Assembly: GCF_023701745.1 (NCBI RefSeq)
Contig: NZ_JAJOZB010000001.1
Location: 7,301,001 to 7,365,000, forward strand
DNA length: 64,000 bases
Reading direction: 5' to 3'
Source of the DNA: Streptomyces sp. RKAG293
GTDB taxonomy: Bacteria; Actinomycetota; Actinomycetes; Streptomycetales; Streptomycetaceae
The translations under genes were made by a program, and so were the position numbers. This document shows positions 44,519 through 59,814 of the stretch, piece after piece. Position 1 is the first letter of the stretch; each line of letters begins with the position of its first letter. Under the pieces are notes generated by a model. The model saw only the letters and a program-made list of their open reading frames with translations. It was not told where the DNA came from and ran no database searches.

Positions 44519-45659
44519 TGTCCTGAGTCAGTAGTTGGCCTAGTGTTCTTGTATGACTCGTCCTGGTCCGAAGCTTGCGCCGCTGAACCTGACTGATGCT
44601 GAACGTGGCGAGTTGGAGCGGTGGGTGCGGCGGCGGAAGGGGGCCCAGGACATGGCCTTTCGAGCCCGTCTCGTCCTGGCGTGTGATGCGGTGGGTGAGG
44701 GCGGGTTCCCCGTTTCGACCGCCGCGGTCGCAGATCGGATGGGGACGACGCGGGAAACGGTGGGCAAATGGCGCCGGCGATTCCTGCAGGATCGGCTGGC
44801 GGGCCTGGAGGACGAACCGCGGCCCGGCAGGCCTCGTACCGTTTCCGATGAGCAGGTTGCGGATCTGATCGCACGGACGCTGGAATCGACGCCGGAGAAC
44901 GCGACGCATTGGTCGACTCGGTCGATGGCGAAAAGGACGGGCCTTTCCCAGTCGACGGTCTCGCGTGTGTGGCGTGCTTTCGGGCTGCAGCCGCACCGCT
45001 CGGAGACGTTCTAACTGTCCACGGATCCGTTCTTCGTTGACAAGGTCCACGACGTCGTCGGTCTGTACCTTGACCCGCCGGAACGGGCGTTGGTGCTGTG
45101 CGTGGATGAGAAGTCGCAGATCCAGGCCCTGGACAGGTCCCAGCCGGTCCTCCCGATGATGCCCGGAGTGCCGGAACGGGCCACTCACGACTACGTGCGG
45201 GCCGGCACCGCCACCCTCTTCGCCGCGTTCAACACCGCCTCCGGCCAGGTCATCGGATCCCTCCACCGACGCCACCGCGCCGCAGAGTTCAAGAAGTTCC
45301 TGTCCAAGCTCGATAGAGAGCTCCCGGCCGAACTCGACGTTCATCTCGGCTGCGACAACTACGCGACCCACAAGACCGCAGACATCAAGAAATGGCTCCT
45401 GGCCCACCCCCGATTCCACCTGCACTTCACGCCCACCGGCTCCTCCTGGCTGAACCTCGTCGAGCGATGGTTCGCAGAGCTGACGAACAAACAGATACGG
45501 CGCGGAGTGCACAAATCCGTGCCGGCACTCGAGAAGGACATCCGCACCTGGATCACCACCTGGAACCAGGACCCCAAGCCCTTCGTCTGGACGAAGACAG
45601 CCGACCAGATCCTCGAATCCCTCGCCTCATACTGTCGACGAATTACCGACTCAGGACAC
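44518..45659 (+). mobile_element. IS630-family element, copy 1 (degenerate)
   Basis: Inverted ends GTGTCCTGAGTC...GACTCAGGACAC bound an 1142-bp element. The left flank is C-TA, but the right flank reads TG instead of TA, so the target duplication is damaged. The transposase carries an internal stop. Same family as the intact element at 52464-53586, with one base different in the first 12 of the ends. Confidence 0.85.
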
Positions 45660-45662
45660 TGG
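44553..45662 (+). pseudogene. IS630-family transposase, nonsense-interrupted
   Basis: ATG 44553 opens a transposase with two helix-turn-helix regions, stopped by TAA at 45012-45014 (SETF then stop). The same frame resumes LSTDPFFVDKVHDVVGLYLD and carries the DDE core (CVDEKSQIQALDR, CDNYATHK, NLVERWFAEL) to ITDSGH. The intact copy has Lys at the stop position. The final codon runs on (TGG) because the usual stop TAG is built from the TA duplication, which is mutated here. Not functional as a single protein. Confidence 0.88.
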
Positions 45663-53552: not shown

Positions 53553-53586
53553 ACCGAACTAACGCCAAACCTCCGACTCAGGTCAC
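52464..53586 (-). mobile_element. IS630-family element, copy 2 (intact, inserted beside a MITE)
   Basis: Ends GTGACCTGAGTC...GACTCAGGTCAC bound 1123 bp with TA on both sides (52462-52463 and 53587-53588) in C-TA...TA-G context, so the target was CTAG. The right TA is also the left TA of the MITE at 53587: the element landed in the CTAG created at the MITE junction, hence after it. Confidence 0.92.
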
Positions 53587-53750
53587 TAGGGTCTGTCGTC
53601 TGGATCTCCGTGGGGGAAGGAGCGGTGTCCGGTGCGTGCAGCTGCAAGGCGGAGGAGGGAGGCGACGCGGAGCGTCGTCGACCGACGACAACGCGGCAGA
53701 TGTGCGTGCTGGACACCGCGACGCCGCGGAGATCCAGACGACAGACCCTA
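53587..53750 (+). mobile_element. MITE copy 1 (164 bp)
   Basis: Non-coding, bounded by TA and perfect inverted ends of at least 22 bp starting GGGTCTGTCGTCTGGATC. Inner inverted repeats (GCGGTGTCC and GGACACCGC; GTCGTCG and CGACGAC) let the whole unit fold. Target TA in CTAG points to mobilisation by an IS630-type transposase, but the ends differ from those of the two IS630 copies here. It is 162/164 identical to the inverted copy at 59551. Confidence 0.9.
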
Positions 53751-54506
53751 GAGCAGGACGCCCCCGGAAACCTCGATGCGTTGGGCGGTGACCCAGCGCA
53801 GTCCGTCGGAGGCGAGCGTGGCGATGGCGTCGCCGATCTCGGCGGGCTCGCCGACGCGGCCCAGAGCGGTCTGCGCCGCCAGCCCCGCTCGCAGGTCGCT
53901 GTCATCGCGCATGGCACCGCCGTTGAAATCGGTGGCGGTCGGTCCCGGGGCGATGGAGTTGACCCGGATGCCACGCGGGCCCAGTTCCAGGGCCAGGGTG
54001 CGACTGAGCACTTCGACGGCGGCCTTGGACGCCGAGTAGACGGCGGTGGCCGGGCTGGTGTGGCGGGTCAGGGAGCTGGAGACGTTGATGACGCTGGCGG
54101 GGTCGGCCATCAGCGGCAGCAGTGCCTGGATGAGGAAGAAGGTCCCACGGACGTTGGTGTCCATCATTGCGTCGAAGTCCGCGACACCGACCTGCTCCAG
54201 GGGGCTGAAGATCCCCACACCTGCGTTGTTGACCAGGATGTCCAGCCGCGTGGCGCCCCAGGACTGCAGGTGCTCGCCGAGCTCGGCCGCGAAGGGCGGG
54301 AACGAGGCGACATCGGCGATGTCCAGACGCAGCGCGAGGGCATCGGACCCGGCCGCCCGCACCGCCTCGACCGTCTCCCGCGCCCCGTCCTCATCACCCC
54401 GGTAGGTGACGATGACCTTGATGCCCCGCTGCGCCAGGGCCAGCGCCGTGCTGCGGCCCAGCCCCCGGTTGGCACCGGTCACCAGCGCGATCTTCTTGCG
54501 GTCCAT
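53748..54506 (-). CDS. Short-chain dehydrogenase/reductase
   Basis: ATG 54506 (GAGGAG upstream) gives 252 residues. NAD(P)-binding TGANRGLG at the N-terminus, NNAG (about 94), catalytic Ser in VINVSSSLTRH and Tyr/Lys in YSASK define the classical SDR family; the end VSGGVLL is normal. The stop TAG uses the TA where the MITE inserted, so the insertion left the protein intact. Divergent from a TetR gene with two operators between, so probably its regulated target. Confidence 0.95.
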   Translation of the reverse strand: MDRKKIALVTGANRGLGRSTALALAQRGIKVIVTYRGDEDGARETVEAVRAAGSDALALRLDIADVASFPPFAAELGEHLQSWGATRLDILVNNAGVGIFSPLEQVGVADFDAMMDTNVRGTFFLIQALLPLMADPASVINVSSSLTRHTSPATAVYSASKAAVEVLSRTLALELGPRGIRVNSIAPGPTATDFNGGAMRDDSDLRAGLAAQTALGRVGEPAEIGDAIATLASDGLRWVTAQRIEVSGGVLL

Positions 54507-54564
54507 GGAGCTGCTCCTCGGAAGGGAAGGGGAAAACGCTGCAGGGCTTACTGCCCGACGCGGA

Positions 54565-54633
54565 AGGCGAGTCGGTCGACTCGCCTCTTTCACCGTAGGC
54601 CCGCCCCCAGAGGCGAGTCAAGTGACTCGCCTC
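54565..54633. promoter_or_regulatory. Twin operators between SDR and TetR genes
   Basis: Two near-identical dyads: AGGCGAGTCG/CGACTCGCCT (54565-54586) and GAGGCGAGTCA/TGACTCGCCTC (54610-54633), each with a two-base centre, centres 46 bp apart. Perfect symmetry and position make them the binding sites of the adjacent TetR regulator for auto- and SDR control. Confidence 0.85.
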
Positions 54634-54656
54634 GCCGTAGCGGGCATACTGGCTCC

Positions 54657-55292
54657 ATGACAGAAGGACTCTCCGACCACCACCGACGGCTGGCGCAGCA
54701 GAAGCGGGAGGCGATCACCTCGTCCGCCACCGCCCTGTTCCTCGACCACGGCTACGCAGGGACGTCACTGGCCCGGATCGCCGAGGCGGCCGGGGTGTCG
54801 AAGTCCACGCTGTTCAAGCAGTTCCCCACGAAGGCGGCCCTGTTCGAGGCCATCGTGAGCGAGTCGTGGAAGCAGGGGTCCGGTCACGCTTCGACCCCGC
54901 CCTCGGCCGGCGACCTGCGTGCGGGGCTGACGGTTATCGGCCACCGTTACGCAGAGCTGGTCGGCCAGCCCGGGATGACGGCCCTGTTCAGGATCGTCAT
55001 CGCCGAACTGCCGCGCCTGCCCGAACTGGGCAGGATGCAGTTCCAGCTGGGCAAGCTGCCCTACTTCGACTCCGTACGGACCTACCTACAAGCCGAGCAC
55101 GAGGCCGGCACCGCGCGTGTGCCCGACGCAGAGAGCGCCGCCAACCAGTTCCTCGGCATGATCGCCAACTTCGTCCTGTGGCCCCGGATGCTGCTCACCG
55201 ACTGGAACCCGGCCGCCGACGAGACCGACCATGCCGTCGACGAGGCCGTGGAGACGATGCTCGCCCGCTACGCCACCGGTCACCAGAAGTAG
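54657..55292 (+). CDS. TetR-family transcriptional regulator
   Basis: ATG 54657 gives 211 residues. TetR helix-turn-helix at about 18-62 (ALFLDHGYAGTSLARIAEAA, GVSKSTLFKQFPTKAALFEA) and a C-terminal ligand domain of the TetR_C type (LFRIVIAELPRLPELGRMQF, MIANFVLWPRMLL). It likely represses the divergent SDR and itself via the two dyads upstream; the inducer may be the SDR substrate (inference). Confidence 0.94.
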   Translation: MTEGLSDHHRRLAQQKREAITSSATALFLDHGYAGTSLARIAEAAGVSKSTLFKQFPTKAALFEAIVSESWKQGSGHASTPPSAGDLRAGLTVIGHRYAELVGQPGMTALFRIVIAELPRLPELGRMQFQLGKLPYFDSVRTYLQAEHEAGTARVPDAESAANQFLGMIANFVLWPRMLLTDWNPAADETDHAVDEAVETMLARYATGHQK

Positions 55293-55604
55293 TCGCCCTC
55301 GCCCGCGCCCCCGATGCTTCGCACGGGCGGGAGCGCGAGCCGCAACGTGCGGTCAGCGCCGGGTGGGGCACGTGTCGTTGACCGCTTCCACCGGTCGTGG
55401 TGCGGGTCGTAGACGAAGCCGGCCTCGGTGGCCTGTCACAAGGCGCCTCCCGTCAGACCTCCCAGGACGCTACCGGTGAGCCCTCGCCCGAGACGCCTAC
55501 GGCAGCGCGCCGGCGCGGGACGTAGTCAATGATCGCCGGCTACCCCAACCGAGGTCGTGGATGGTGAGCTCGAAGTCGCGATGCGCCTTGGCGTCCAGCC
55601 CGGT
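55293..55604. other. Spacer between convergent TetR and Tat-protein genes
   Basis: No gene recognised; no strong hairpin found. Confidence 0.35.
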
Positions 55605-57182
55605 TCAGCCGGCGCGGTAGACGGCGTCGACGTTGTCGCGCGCCGGCCGGGATCGGCCTACGGGACCGGTGGCGAACGCGAGGAGCAGATTCTTCGTGGT
55701 GGTGCGTGCGAACGCGCCTGCGGCGGCGTTCATGCCGTGGTTTCCTCTGCCGCCTGGTCCCTTGGCATCCAGCGCTTCGACCCAGCGCATGGTGCCGGAT
55801 GCGAAGACGCCGGCGCCGCCGGGTGCGGAGTAGTACGCCGTATCGGAGAAGCTGGGTCGGCCTTCGCAGGTGACGGGGGAGTGGGCGAGGATCTCCAGGG
55901 GGCGTGGGGTGGGCCAGATGGTGTTCACCCGGTCGAATTCGGCCCCCACCAGGTGGGGGAAACTGTCGCCATAGGTGACATCAGTGCCGGTGAAGAGCCA
56001 GTGGCCGGGGTTGGTCACCACGTAGGCGGCGTCCACCGGGTAGTCGTCGTAGATCACGCCCAGCAGCGAACTCTCCGGGTTCGCACCTGGTGCGGCGCGG
56101 AATTTCTGGGTTGCGGCGCCGCCGGCCAGGAAACCCGGGTCCGTCCGGTAGTCGGCCTTGTAGCACGCGATGTCCCGATCGGGGCCGTACGCGGAGGCTC
56201 CGAATCTGATGCGGCGGAAGCAGCAGTTCGCTCCCAGGATCGCCAGGTTTGTTCCCGCGTCACGGGCTGCGGTGACGTGCTGGCGCTGGGAATCGGACCA
56301 GTACTCGTCGTGGCCCAGGGAGAGCAGGGCGGCAGCTCCGCGCAACAGATCCGGGTCGCGGGCGAGATCGACGCCCGTGGTGTACGCCAGCGGGATGCCG
56401 AGCTGTTCGGCGAGAGCGATCAGCGGGGCCTCGTACACCAGGAACTGCCCGGCTCCGTGGCCGTACTGGTAGGGGCGGTCAAAGGTGACTTCCAGCGACC
56501 GGTTCTTCCGGCCCCCGGCGGGGCCGTCGTAGAGGTTGTGACCGCCCCACAGGTTGTACGCCTGCCAGGTGGCGACCGCGTTGACCACGACGGTCCTGCC
56601 GGTGGTGGACGGTGAGCGAACGGTGATCGGGACGTAGCGCTGGCCGGCTCCGCCCTGTGCGTCCAGCCGGAGCAGGTAGCTGCCTTCGGGCCAGTCCGTG
56701 GTGTCGACGGTGGTGGTGCGTGCCCAGCCGGTGTGCACAGTGCGGGTCTTGGCGTCGACGGTGGCAGCGGGCTGGCGGTGGCCGGGCAGCACGGCCGAGC
56801 GCCACACCAGGCGGGCGCGGGCTCCGCCGTACCAACCCATCCGGTAGGCCGAGACGGTGAAGCCGGACGCGACGGTGGACACATGGAGGCCGAAACGTTC
56901 GCCTGCCAGGACACTGACCCGGTCGGCAAAGCCCTCGACGGCCTGCGTTGTCCCGGCCCGGATGATGGCCCAGGCCGGATCGCCTCGACGAGCGTTTTCC
57001 ACCACCACGTCCAACGGGTCGGCGGATTCTGATGCGGTCCGGGTGCGTGCGGCGTCTCGTGCTTCGGCCGGCACGCCCGCGGACCCGAGGCCCGCCAACG
57101 CACCCGCGGTCAGGGTCAGAAACCGGCGCCGTCCGGCGCCGCCCCTCATTCCAGCGGCCGGATCGATCCTTCGCGCCACCAC
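55605..57182 (-). CDS. Secreted N,N-dimethylformamidase beta-subunit-like protein
   Basis: GTG 57182 has GGAGGG nine bases upstream (525 residues); ATG 57149 is an alternative. A twin-arginine signal (GRRRFLTLTAGALAGLGSAG) indicates Tat export. The body matches the DMFase large-subunit C-terminal domain: YRMGWYGGARARLVWRS, VVVNAVATWQAYNLWGGHNL, FLVYEAPLIALAEQLGIPLA, LLSLGHDEYWSDSQRQHV and a late HGMN. The true DMFase hydrolyses dimethylformamide with a small subunit. No small subunit is seen, so the substrate is probably different. Confidence 0.88.
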   Translation of the reverse strand: MVARRIDPAAGMRGGAGRRRFLTLTAGALAGLGSAGVPAEARDAARTRTASESADPLDVVVENARRGDPAWAIIRAGTTQAVEGFADRVSVLAGERFGLHVSTVASGFTVSAYRMGWYGGARARLVWRSAVLPGHRQPAATVDAKTRTVHTGWARTTTVDTTDWPEGSYLLRLDAQGGAGQRYVPITVRSPSTTGRTVVVNAVATWQAYNLWGGHNLYDGPAGGRKNRSLEVTFDRPYQYGHGAGQFLVYEAPLIALAEQLGIPLAYTTGVDLARDPDLLRGAAALLSLGHDEYWSDSQRQHVTAARDAGTNLAILGANCCFRRIRFGASAYGPDRDIACYKADYRTDPGFLAGGAATQKFRAAPGANPESSLLGVIYDDYPVDAAYVVTNPGHWLFTGTDVTYGDSFPHLVGAEFDRVNTIWPTPRPLEILAHSPVTCEGRPSFSDTAYYSAPGGAGVFASGTMRWVEALDAKGPGGRGNHGMNAAAGAFARTTTKNLLLAFATGPVGRSRPARDNVDAVYRAG

Positions 57183-57439
57183 GCGTGCCCTCCAACGGTC
57201 GTCCCCTCGGGTGGCCCCATCGTCGCTTCCCAGTCCTGCATCTTCCTTCCGGCACGCGAGGGGCAGGCAGGAGAGTAGCCCGATAGGTGTTGGCAGATCG
57301 TTTCAGCAACGGCATTCGAGTGGCAGCGCACATTACCGGTCGTGACGACGGCAGACATGAGGGGAGGAACTGGCCGACTGACCGGTTTCACCGGGCCGGT
57401 TCGTCCGTGATGCCGGCCCCCGGCCGCCGTCCTCATGGG

Positions 57440-58297
57440 TCAGACGTAGTCCTCCAGGCGCGCCACGGTGAAGCCCTGCTCGGAGATCATGCGCAGCAGG
57501 TTGGCGGTCATCTCCGTCATGGAGGTGCCCTTGAGCTCCGAGGGGCCGCGGAAGTGGGCGAGGATGATGTCGCCGGGGTGCAGTTTCTTGTCGGCGCGCT
57601 GGTACTGCATGCCCTTGATCTGCATGGACTCGCGCCACAGGATGAGCGCCTGGAGTCCGCAGGACTTCGCGGCGGTCTTGGTGGCCTCGTTGAGGTTGCC
57701 GTAGGGCGGCCGGAGGAGGCGGGGTGTGGTGCCGTATTCGGCCTTCAGCTTCGTCTGCTGGGTGCAGATCTCGTGCCGCTGGGCGGATTCCGACTCGGTG
57801 CGCAGGTTCGGGTGCGTCAGCGTGTGGTTCATGATCGGGTTGCCGAGCTCCTGGAGGGGCTTGAAGTAGCCGTAGTCGCTCCGGATGCTGACGTCGGTCA
57901 GGAACATCGTGAAGGGGATCTTCAGTTCGCCCATCATGGTGACGAACTTCGGGTCCTTCTCCGCGCCGTCGTCGAAGGTGACGAAGACGATCTTCTCCTT
58001 GGTGGGGACGTCGCTGACCACCGGCGGCGTCCCGGAACCGGTCTTCACCGGCTTCACCTTCGGCGGCGCCGGGGGCGCCGCCAGCGGCTTGATCTTCCAC
58101 TTGTGCAGCGCGGCGGCCGTAGCAGCCGTGGACCGGATATCCCCAACTGCCCTATCGATCTGTGTAGTTGATCGGGCGGACAAGGTGGTAAGCGGTGGCT
58201 GTTCTGCGGTGGGAGCAGTGAGTGGGGACGTGATCGCTGAGCGCCCCACGACGACAACAAGGGCCGAGAGGAGCAGTCCTGTCGCTTTTCCTAGCAT
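57440..58297 (-). CDS. Secreted polysaccharide deacetylase
   Basis: A 285-residue protein from ATG 58297 with an N-terminal membrane/signal helix (ATGLLLSALVVVVG), a Pro/Lys-rich linker and a NodB domain (about 100-285). Motif 1 is FVTFDDGAEKDP with the catalytic and metal Asp, motif 2 NHTLTHPNL with two metal His, and motif 3 RPPYGNL. It is predicted to deacetylate a wall or capsule polysaccharide outside the cell. Confidence 0.93.
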   Translation of the reverse strand: MLGKATGLLLSALVVVVGRSAITSPLTAPTAEQPPLTTLSARSTTQIDRAVGDIRSTAATAAALHKWKIKPLAAPPAPPKVKPVKTGSGTPPVVSDVPTKEKIVFVTFDDGAEKDPKFVTMMGELKIPFTMFLTDVSIRSDYGYFKPLQELGNPIMNHTLTHPNLRTESESAQRHEICTQQTKLKAEYGTTPRLLRPPYGNLNEATKTAAKSCGLQALILWRESMQIKGMQYQRADKKLHPGDIILAHFRGPSELKGTSMTEMTANLLRMISEQGFTVARLEDYV

Positions 58298-58568
58298 TCG
58301 CAGACTCTATGCCGTTTGCTCCGTCCGGCATCGCCTTCCGCGGGCGGCTGGATGCGCTTTCGCCAGATGTTCCAGGTAGCCCCTGGCGGGGCGGCCACGA
58401 CCCAGTCGCCAGATCGCATCGGGCCTGGAGCGGGCTGGGCCGAATCATCGCCAGAAGCTGGTGAGTTCGAGGCGGTGAGCGTGGCGAACGGGTGAAGGTC
58501 TGTTTTGCCCGCCAGCTGTGTGGCGTGGAACGCGGAAGCCTTGCACGGCGACCTGCAAGGGTGGTCGG

Positions 58569-59534
58569 GTGCCCATTCCGACACCGCTGACGAGCGGGAA
58601 ACCGAACTCGCGAATGCCCTTGCCTCCCCTGCTGCCAGTGGTGCCGACCGGCAGCGACCCGGCGGCAAAGCTCCGCCGTGGCGGTGCCCGACGACTGACG
58701 GCCGCCCTCGGGGTGGCGCTGGCGGTTCTTCCGCTCACATCCCTGAGCAGTACCGCGCGAGCGGCGCCGCGCGCAGACCCTTCCGGCTCGGGTATCTGCC
58801 AGTCCTCCCTGTACCCGCACCTGGCGGCTGTGCTCTCGGCTGATATCGCCCGCGCACATGCGGGCCGCAAGAGCACCATCGCCTTCACGCTGTGGGACGC
58901 CGAAAAGCAGCTGTCCTGCGCGGACAACGCCAACCGTCGATTCGACTCCGCGAGCGTCGTCAAAGTGACGATCATGGGTGCACTGCTGCGCCGTGCCGAA
59001 GAGGGACACCGTCTCCTGACCGCCGCGGAGACGAAGAACCTCAAGCTGATGATCATCAAGTCGGACAACGCTGCCGCTACCACTTTGTGGAACAGCCTGG
59101 GGCCCGCCTGCTTGGGTAGTTTCCTGCGACTCGCCGGAATGCGCGACACCGTACTGTCCCCAGGGAAGACCTGGGGTCTGACCCAGATCACCGCGATCGA
59201 CGAGATGAAACAGCTCGATGTCTTCGCCTCGGAATCCACCGTCCTGTCTCCGTCGGACCAGGGATACGGACTGAAGCTGATGAGCCAAGTCCAGGCCGAC
59301 CAGCGTTGGGGCGCCCCGCACGGCGTACCTGCCGGCATCCGCGTTCAGGTGAAGAACGGCTGGGCGCCGCGTGCCACTCGCGGCTGGCGGATCCACAGCC
59401 TGGGGGTCTTCACCGGAACCGGCCGCAACTACCGGATGGCCGTCCTGACCGACAACAACGCCACGAAGGCATACGGCGTCGACACCATCCAGCGGATCGC
59501 CGCCATCGTCCACCGTGACCTCAATGTGCGGTAG
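58569..59534 (+). CDS. Secreted serine hydrolase (class A beta-lactamase fold)
   Basis: GTG 58569 (AGGGTGG upstream) gives 321 residues; ATG 58614 is an alternative. A signal-like segment (LTAALGVALAVLPLTSL) is followed by the catalytic domain: SxxK in SASVVK, SDN in KSDNAATT and a KTG-box variant KNG in QVKNGWAP. The GlnGlu motif of true class A lactamases (ExxLN) is not evident, so a DD-peptidase-like or unknown serine hydrolase is as likely. Faces the MITE at its 3' end. Confidence 0.87.
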   Translation: MPIPTPLTSGKPNSRMPLPPLLPVVPTGSDPAAKLRRGGARRLTAALGVALAVLPLTSLSSTARAAPRADPSGSGICQSSLYPHLAAVLSADIARAHAGRKSTIAFTLWDAEKQLSCADNANRRFDSASVVKVTIMGALLRRAEEGHRLLTAAETKNLKLMIIKSDNAAATTLWNSLGPACLGSFLRLAGMRDTVLSPGKTWGLTQITAIDEMKQLDVFASESTVLSPSDQGYGLKLMSQVQADQRWGAPHGVPAGIRVQVKNGWAPRATRGWRIHSLGVFTGTGRNYRMAVLTDNNATKAYGVDTIQRIAAIVHRDLNVR

Positions 59535-59550
59535 CACTGACGCAGAGTCC

Positions 59551-59714
59551 TAGGGCCTGTCGTCTGGATCTCCGCGGCGTCGCGGTGTCCAGCACGCACA
59601 TCTGCCGCGTTGTCGTCGGTCGACGACGCTCCGCGTCGCCTCCCTCCTCCGCCTTGCAGCTACACGCACCGGACACCGCTCCTTCCCCCACGGAGATCCA
59701 GACGACAGACCCTA
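59551..59714 (-). mobile_element. MITE copy 2 (164 bp, inverted)
   Basis: Same element as at 53587 in the opposite orientation, with only two base differences (one in its end, GGGCCTG instead of GGGTCTG on the left side here). TA on both sides in C-TA...TA-G context. Inserted 17 bases after the hydrolase stop. The short distance from copy 1 in sequence identity indicates recent transposition or recent duplication. Confidence 0.9.
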
Positions 59715-59814
59715 GCCCCGTTCGGCGGCAGGGCTCGAAAAGCGCATCGCCTGGCGCTGCCGACACCCGATACCTGTGTTCCGCCGTCGTCGAGCCCCCA
59801 TGAGAACGGATCCG

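Follow-up and report, generated by a model that had tools for sequence, protein, structure and literature searches.

Miniature inverted-repeat transposable elements (MITEs) of prokaryotes are short and non-coding, carry terminal inverted repeats (TIRs), duplicate their target, occur in many copies and form a strong hairpin; the Figure 2 legend of a review of such elements presents one of them, QMITE2, with TIRs and a core (PMC10969869). The main text of that review contains none of the terms Streptomyces, Actinobac, Mycobacter and Frankia. Here we describe a MITE family of Streptomyces sp. RKAG293, starting from two 164-bp copies within a stretch of 64,000 nucleotides (contig NZ_JAJOZB010000001.1, positions 7,301,001 to 7,365,000, referred to as the window). 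The family shares all of the features listed above and differs from the elements portrayed in that source in that one and the same core is found under at least ten different ends across a bacterial class.

Among insertion sequences (IS), two families offer the closest comparison. The NF033580/DUF4096 group of the IS5 family, which we take to be IS427-like, resembles the MITE in its end sequence and in the use of TA within CTAG; the MITE, in contrast, lacks a transposase, and its ends differ at no fewer than 2 of 20 positions from those of the IS elements compared. Members of the IS630 family and IS870 likewise use a CTAG target, and the IS630 element residing next to one of the window copies also ends its transposase gene in the TAG of the target. 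For IS870, a stop codon derived from the CTAG target was reportedly described by Fournier in 1993; IS870 completes its own gene, whereas the MITE keeps the stop of the host gene. Known before are MITEs, the ends of IS5 elements, CTAG as a target and, in IS870, a stop codon provided by CTAG. The account that we consider likely for the present locus combines them with a further component: the window repeats would be recent copies of a nonautonomous MITE with IS5-type ends, which inserts at CTAG, spares stop codons and carries a folded core under selection.

The window repeats and their genomic family

Copy 1 lies at 53587..53750 on the plus strand and copy 2 at 59551..59714 on the minus strand of the window, the unit length counting both TAs, one of which belongs to the target. 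The arms returned by a repeat search (53586-53751 and 59550-59715, 166 nt with the outer C and G) are 99% complementary with a spacing of 5798 nt, and together with a direct comparison of the units they confirm the sequence-only reading from which we started, namely that two units of 164 bp lie in inverted orientation and agree at 162 of 164 positions. Both are written C-TA-unit-TA-G, and the TA duplication in CTAG context noted in that reading is seen at both copies. The matching ends that it described as perfect do match, as TIRs of 28 nt, but fall somewhat short of perfection, with complementarities of 96% and 93%; in copy 1 they span 53586..53613 (plus, with the flanking C) and 53724..53751 (minus, with the flanking G), in copy 2 59550..59577 (plus) and 59688..59715 (minus). 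The end 18-mer, with up to 3 mismatches allowed, occurs four times in the window compared to 0.11 expected from shuffles.

A pattern search of the organism's own genome (G000, 9.27 Mb) for the MITE end with up to 2 mismatches returned 71 ends, which were assigned to MITEs, 56-bp copies and solo ends. Altogether, 30 full-length copies were counted, along with one partial copy, three 56-bp copies consisting of the ends only and a few solo ends; the full-length copies are divided 15 to 15 between the chromosome strands. Of these, 26 measure 164 bp, 11 of the 26 being equal to the consensus and four, including copy 1, sharing a single change. Exact matches to copy 1 lie at 8.40, 5.58 and 2.74 Mb, and eleven other copies are one base removed from copy 2. 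Being short, devoid of a transposase, bounded by TIRs and dispersed in 30 copies, the units are non-coding MITEs as had been proposed. The recent movement deduced from the near identity of the pair also holds as recent spread, but it is a property of the whole genome, where 11 of the 26 copies of 164 bp match the consensus exactly. The three 56-bp elements (L034, L035 and L036, at 2916430, 5111918 and 5393521) are nearly identical to each other, possess both MITE ends and no core, and occupy CTAG sites. Either they move themselves or they result from repeated internal deletions.

The conserved core

The center of the element is formed by a conserved core of 51 nt, located at 53644..53694 on the plus strand in copy 1 (C1:7354644-7354694, 83 bits) and at 59607..59657 on the minus strand in copy 2 (C1:7360607-7360657). 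Searches were carried out with a model of 51 positions and 8 pairs (R1), the E-values of which stem from a short calibration, so that the weakest matches are uncertain. With this model the core is found, within the family, in 110 of 200 genomes representing 6 of 17 genera and, within the class, in 67 of 296 genomes representing 22 of 115 genera; by our own reading of the table, 49 of these 67 genomes belong to 11 families other than this one. A phage search gave no match. Many of the distant core elements that we examined are again about 160-167 bp long and have inverted ends, yet in the relatives the ends change while the core stays. At least ten different ends occur with it, among them GGGYCTGTCGTCTGGATC, GGGCCTGTCCGGCGGATC, GGGCCTGTCTTTCGGATC, GGGGGTGTCTTGTGGATC and GGGCGTGTCTCACGGATC as well as GAGGCCGCGCGAATAGG, CGACCTGGCGCGCGATGG, AGAGCGCCCGAGGATAGG, CTAGTGTCGCGTGTTGAAAATT and GGGCGCTTCCCATGGATC. 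The core is far better conserved than the ends, its conserved flanks GCAAGGCGGAGGAGG and GACGACAACGC enclosing a short stem in which the letters vary and the pairing persists.

This stem is the apical hairpin of the core (53661..53679, plus strand; alignment columns 18-36), which consists of eight covarying base pairs closed by a GGA triloop. Its conservation was assessed in an alignment (A2) of 55 of the 59 distinct 51-nt cores, leaving out L019, L023, L026 and L033; selection of the cores relied on their flanking letters, irrespective of pairing. The search expression had matched 94 distinct stretches, of which 35 have other lengths (chance matches or cores with inserts) and stayed unaligned. 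In this alignment the stem is 94.8% paired, and in seven of the eight pairs both sides change, which concerns 87 of 440 cells. The covariation score was reached in none of 500 shuffles and collapses in slid controls; the measure of further pair types, taken alone, is not unusual (158 of 500). The GGA loop and the closing C-G pair hardly vary.

The two strands, one of them designated the GGCGGAGGAGG strand, are not equivalent with respect to folding. Within the stem, G.T pairs outnumber A.C pairs by 31 to 5. Over the whole element, 26 representatives show 110 wobbles on the plus strand versus 40 on the minus strand, with 20 elements leaning one way and two the other, and in 61 of 63 distinct elements the better fold is that of the plus strand. 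For copy 1 the folding energies are -125 (plus) versus -93.9 kcal/mol (minus), at z values of -16 and -10. A mutation bias between strands is an unlikely cause, since the elements are distributed 15:15 on the chromosome strands. Because compensatory changes affect seven of eight pairs and a better fold is seen for one strand in 61 of 63 elements, a single-stranded form of the core, either RNA or single-stranded DNA (ssDNA), is probably under selection, for which the comparison of sequences provides good evidence. The core would then act as a folded single strand, as RNA or as extruded ssDNA, that is recognized by something widespread in Actinomycetes.

One alternative places the function of the core at the level of DNA, where the C-GGA-G hairpin, extruded as ssDNA, would bring both ends together for the transposase. 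The end-to-end fold of the whole element cited above (-125 kcal/mol with RNA parameters, z -16) is in line with such a role, and C-GNA-G loops are very stable DNA mini-hairpins. The three core-less 56-bp copies at CTAG sites suggest, on the other hand, that the ends alone may suffice, and RNA and ssDNA are indistinguishable in these data; we regard this DNA-level reading as rather unlikely, if worth keeping in mind. A second alternative, to which we give less credence and which we consider improbable, holds that the core is conserved merely through shared descent in a young MITE family, the palindrome being maintained by gene conversion from arm to arm without any function. The arms of long palindromes can indeed convert each other, and copies within one genome are nearly identical. 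Across the 11 further families, however, the best-conserved letters are the non-palindromic blocks of the internal loop while the ends and arms change, and conversion predicts no strand preference, contrary to the ratio of G.T to A.C pairs and to the 61 of 63 elements favoring one strand. A protein-coding core was rejected, since the lengths observed for the core (51 to 55 nt) break the frame.

The preferred reading, a selected single-stranded core, places the element close to the structured RNAs collected in Rfam, with which it has a covarying stem and conserved loop letters in common; no family of Rfam 15 matches the window MITEs or eight related loci. The freely available literature searched yielded no paper on this element and no report of this core, and the core letters were absent from it. 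Two further features of the hairpin were noted. In alignment A2, a C in column 17 goes with an A after the stem (column 37) and an A in column 17 mostly with a G, possibly a covarying non-standard pair. At five loci (L071, L078, L097, L150 and L156) a second GC-rich palindrome, of the TGGGGGCACC... type, lies within the GGA loop of the hairpin.

Target sites and stop codons

CTAG is scarce in the window, with 20 occurrences compared to 190 expected from base composition and 49 from a Markov estimate. Nearly all 30 full-length copies in the genome sit at a TA within CTAG, L016 and L020 being the deviating sites. When the 30 sites were closed by script, 20 became the TAG stop of an adjacent called gene, 10 were intergenic and none was inside a gene (L020, which reads CTAA when closed, is counted among the 20). 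For 72 other CTAGs the corresponding numbers are 14, 52 and 6, which amounts to an excess of stops at MITE sites of 20/30 versus 14/72 (Fisher p 8e-6). Two of the 20 stops are those of the IS630 transposase itself; without them the excess is 18/28 (p 3e-5).

The situation is seen directly at the SDR oxidoreductase gene (53748..54506, minus strand), whose native stop codon is the insertion site of copy 1: the CTA of the CTAG to the right of this copy (53748..53751) is the minus-strand TAG stop. In three relatives the SDR homologs terminate at the same residue, and one of them has an unoccupied CTAG at its stop. Since the insertion lies between the C and the G of its target, the TAG was already present and was restored by the TA duplication; the upstream protein is left intact, the sole addition being a hairpin behind it. 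The stop codon of the host gene is thus spared by insertion, as seen directly for SDR and according to gene calls for 20 of the 30 sites. The remaining targets in the window are the CTAG that copy 1 has in common with the IS630 element on its left (53586..53589) and those to the left (59550..59553, intergenic) and right (59712..59715) of copy 2.

In other genomes, a gene stop falls at the element boundary in 29 of 82 elements, versus 1-11 in equal shifted windows. This test excludes the copies of the own genome with the exception of an old copy (L038); some boundaries were placed a few bases too far in, which makes the 29 approximate, and the two adjacent windows yield 11 and 9.

Ends and transposase family

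Judged by its ends, the MITE is an IS5-family derivative. The end sequence in question is GGGYCTGTCGTYTGGATC, and similar ends occur on intact or near-intact IS5 elements. An annotated IS5 element (L131) with ends TAGGCCGTTTCGTTTGGATCA, CTAG on both flanks and a frame-split transposase, and a second IS5 element (L116) with TAGGGTCTGTTTCTCGGATC at both ends, encode proteins that match NF033580, L131 in addition matching DUF4096; the end of a third element (L112) differs from the MITE end at 2 of 20 positions. An 885-bp element in a relative (L079, 2028-2912) carries the exact left end TAGGGCCTGTCGTTTGGATCA and, at its right, the C-terminus of an IS5 transposase. None of the 17 DUF4096 (IS5) transposase loci in the own genome has MITE ends as its own ends. 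Most likely the MITE is moved in trans by an IS5-family transposase, a helper that we only infer, because the IS5 ends are similar to those of the MITE and not identical.

Three minor points concern these loci. The interrupted IS5 transposase gene of L079 contains a 195-aa open frame of an unrelated kind. Ten of the 17 DUF4096 matches lie at the beginning of the chromosome contig, within 232 kb (C1:33957-232228). Another locus (L080), considered as an IS with the exact end, was rejected: downstream lie an unrelated gene and a transposase-like frame on the minus strand, the latter not run against a library.

The sequence-only reading had pointed to the IS630 family. In this alternative, the IS630 element next to copy 1 or some other IS630/Tc1-like element would have given rise to the MITEs and would move them. 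The adjacent element (NF033545; 52462..53588, minus strand; 1127 bp counting both TAs) has seven near-identical copies in the genome. It duplicates TA within CTAG as the MITE does, and four of the seven copies share a CTAG with a 164-bp-type MITE, far above chance (p about 1e-6 to 2e-5); the MITE concerned is in one case a 158-bp copy (L029). The ends, however, differ (TAGTGACCTGAGTC for the IS630 element and TAGGGTCTGTCGTC for the MITE), matching ends are located on IS5-family (NF033580) elements, and elsewhere the same IS630 end adjoins various IS5-type ends at a common CTAG. The ends thus belong to a family other than IS630, an outcome that the sequence-only reading itself had named as a refutation, and IS630 parentage, which we rejected as a candidate on account of the differing local TIRs, is largely refuted by them and appears to us very improbable; the IS630 element is a neighbor of the MITE and not its parent.

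The proximity of the two elements may be explained by their target. As every insertion into CTAG has a CTAG on either side afterwards, tandems of IS630 and MITE would become likely, since IS630 also uses CTAG and can come to lie directly against the MITE. The transposase gene of this IS630 element itself takes its TAG stop from the CTAG target. A fifth IS630 copy adjoins another end, followed by the start of a core (L234), and in 10 of 388 genomes of the family an IS630 end adjoins a GG..CTGTC or GTGTC end at a common CTAG, with one mismatch allowed. On a Streptomyces plasmid (L128), an IS630 end of the same type touches an IS5-type end at a common CTAG. A second IS630-type stretch, 75% identical, is present in the window at 44753-45660.

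Proposed mechanism

In the account that we favor, an IS5-family transposase would move the MITE in trans into CTAG, a sequence that is scarce in this GC-rich genome and often consists of a C and a TAG stop; the duplication of TA is visible in the sequence itself. Element lineages would adapt their ends to whichever IS5-type transposase is available. A number of results weigh against this account or parts of it. Covariation counts are inflated by related sequences, and the effective numbers are smaller owing to shared descent. An autonomous element with these 20-bp ends was detected neither in the own genome nor in 34 relatives of the genus, and two pattern scans of genome contigs gave none with the same ends; among 394 genomes of the family, the 30 loci examined comprised one IS5 remnant and otherwise showed no transposase motif. 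Compared with flank CTAGs alone, 10 of 27 of which coincide with stops, the excess at MITE sites is weak (p 0.06), and the orientation of the MITE relative to the gene at the stop site is unbiased (8 same, 12 opposite). The existence of three core-less copies, finally, means that the core may not be needed for movement.

A bolder version of the account, for which we would claim slightly less than an even chance, is that of a mobile hairpin common to the class, in which a selected single-stranded motif (a covarying C-GGA-G stem with conserved purine-rich internal-loop letters) swaps ends among IS5-type transposases and settles harmlessly at stops, giving hundreds of genes the same structured 3' tail. 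Should the core be under selection, it would be a structured element outside Rfam 15 that is carried on parasites of parasites in many actinobacteria, some of them makers of antibiotics. The stop-codon rule provides a simple reason for the high copy number that such elements can attain in GC-rich genomes, and it makes the purpose of a MITE core directly testable.

The pair and the genes between the copies

Given 30 copies in the genome, chance alone would produce 0.56 neighbor gaps no longer than 5964 bp, and each window copy has equally close or closer relatives elsewhere; the pair therefore appears to be not a unit but two members of a dispersed MITE family. That it forms a composite transposon or an invertible 5.8-kb segment, as its inverted orientation and near identity had suggested, is hardly credible given this spacing and these relatives, and is without support, because the genes between the copies were not found as one block in any of 35 genus genomes and match at separate places, the SDR and TetR genes being ordinary neighbors and the deacetylase gene a duplicate of a gene elsewhere.

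The polysaccharide deacetylase gene (57437-58120) has a 96% identical partner of 684 bp at C1:5397457-5398140 and matches of 89-95% in four relatives, and is a recent duplication. The gene for a hydrolase of beta-lactamase2 fold (58518..59534, plus strand) ends 16 nt before copy 2. Beyond copy 2, a 39-nt near-perfect inverted repeat (92%) is located 3' of an NlpC/P60 gene (60666-60704) and is perhaps a terminator.

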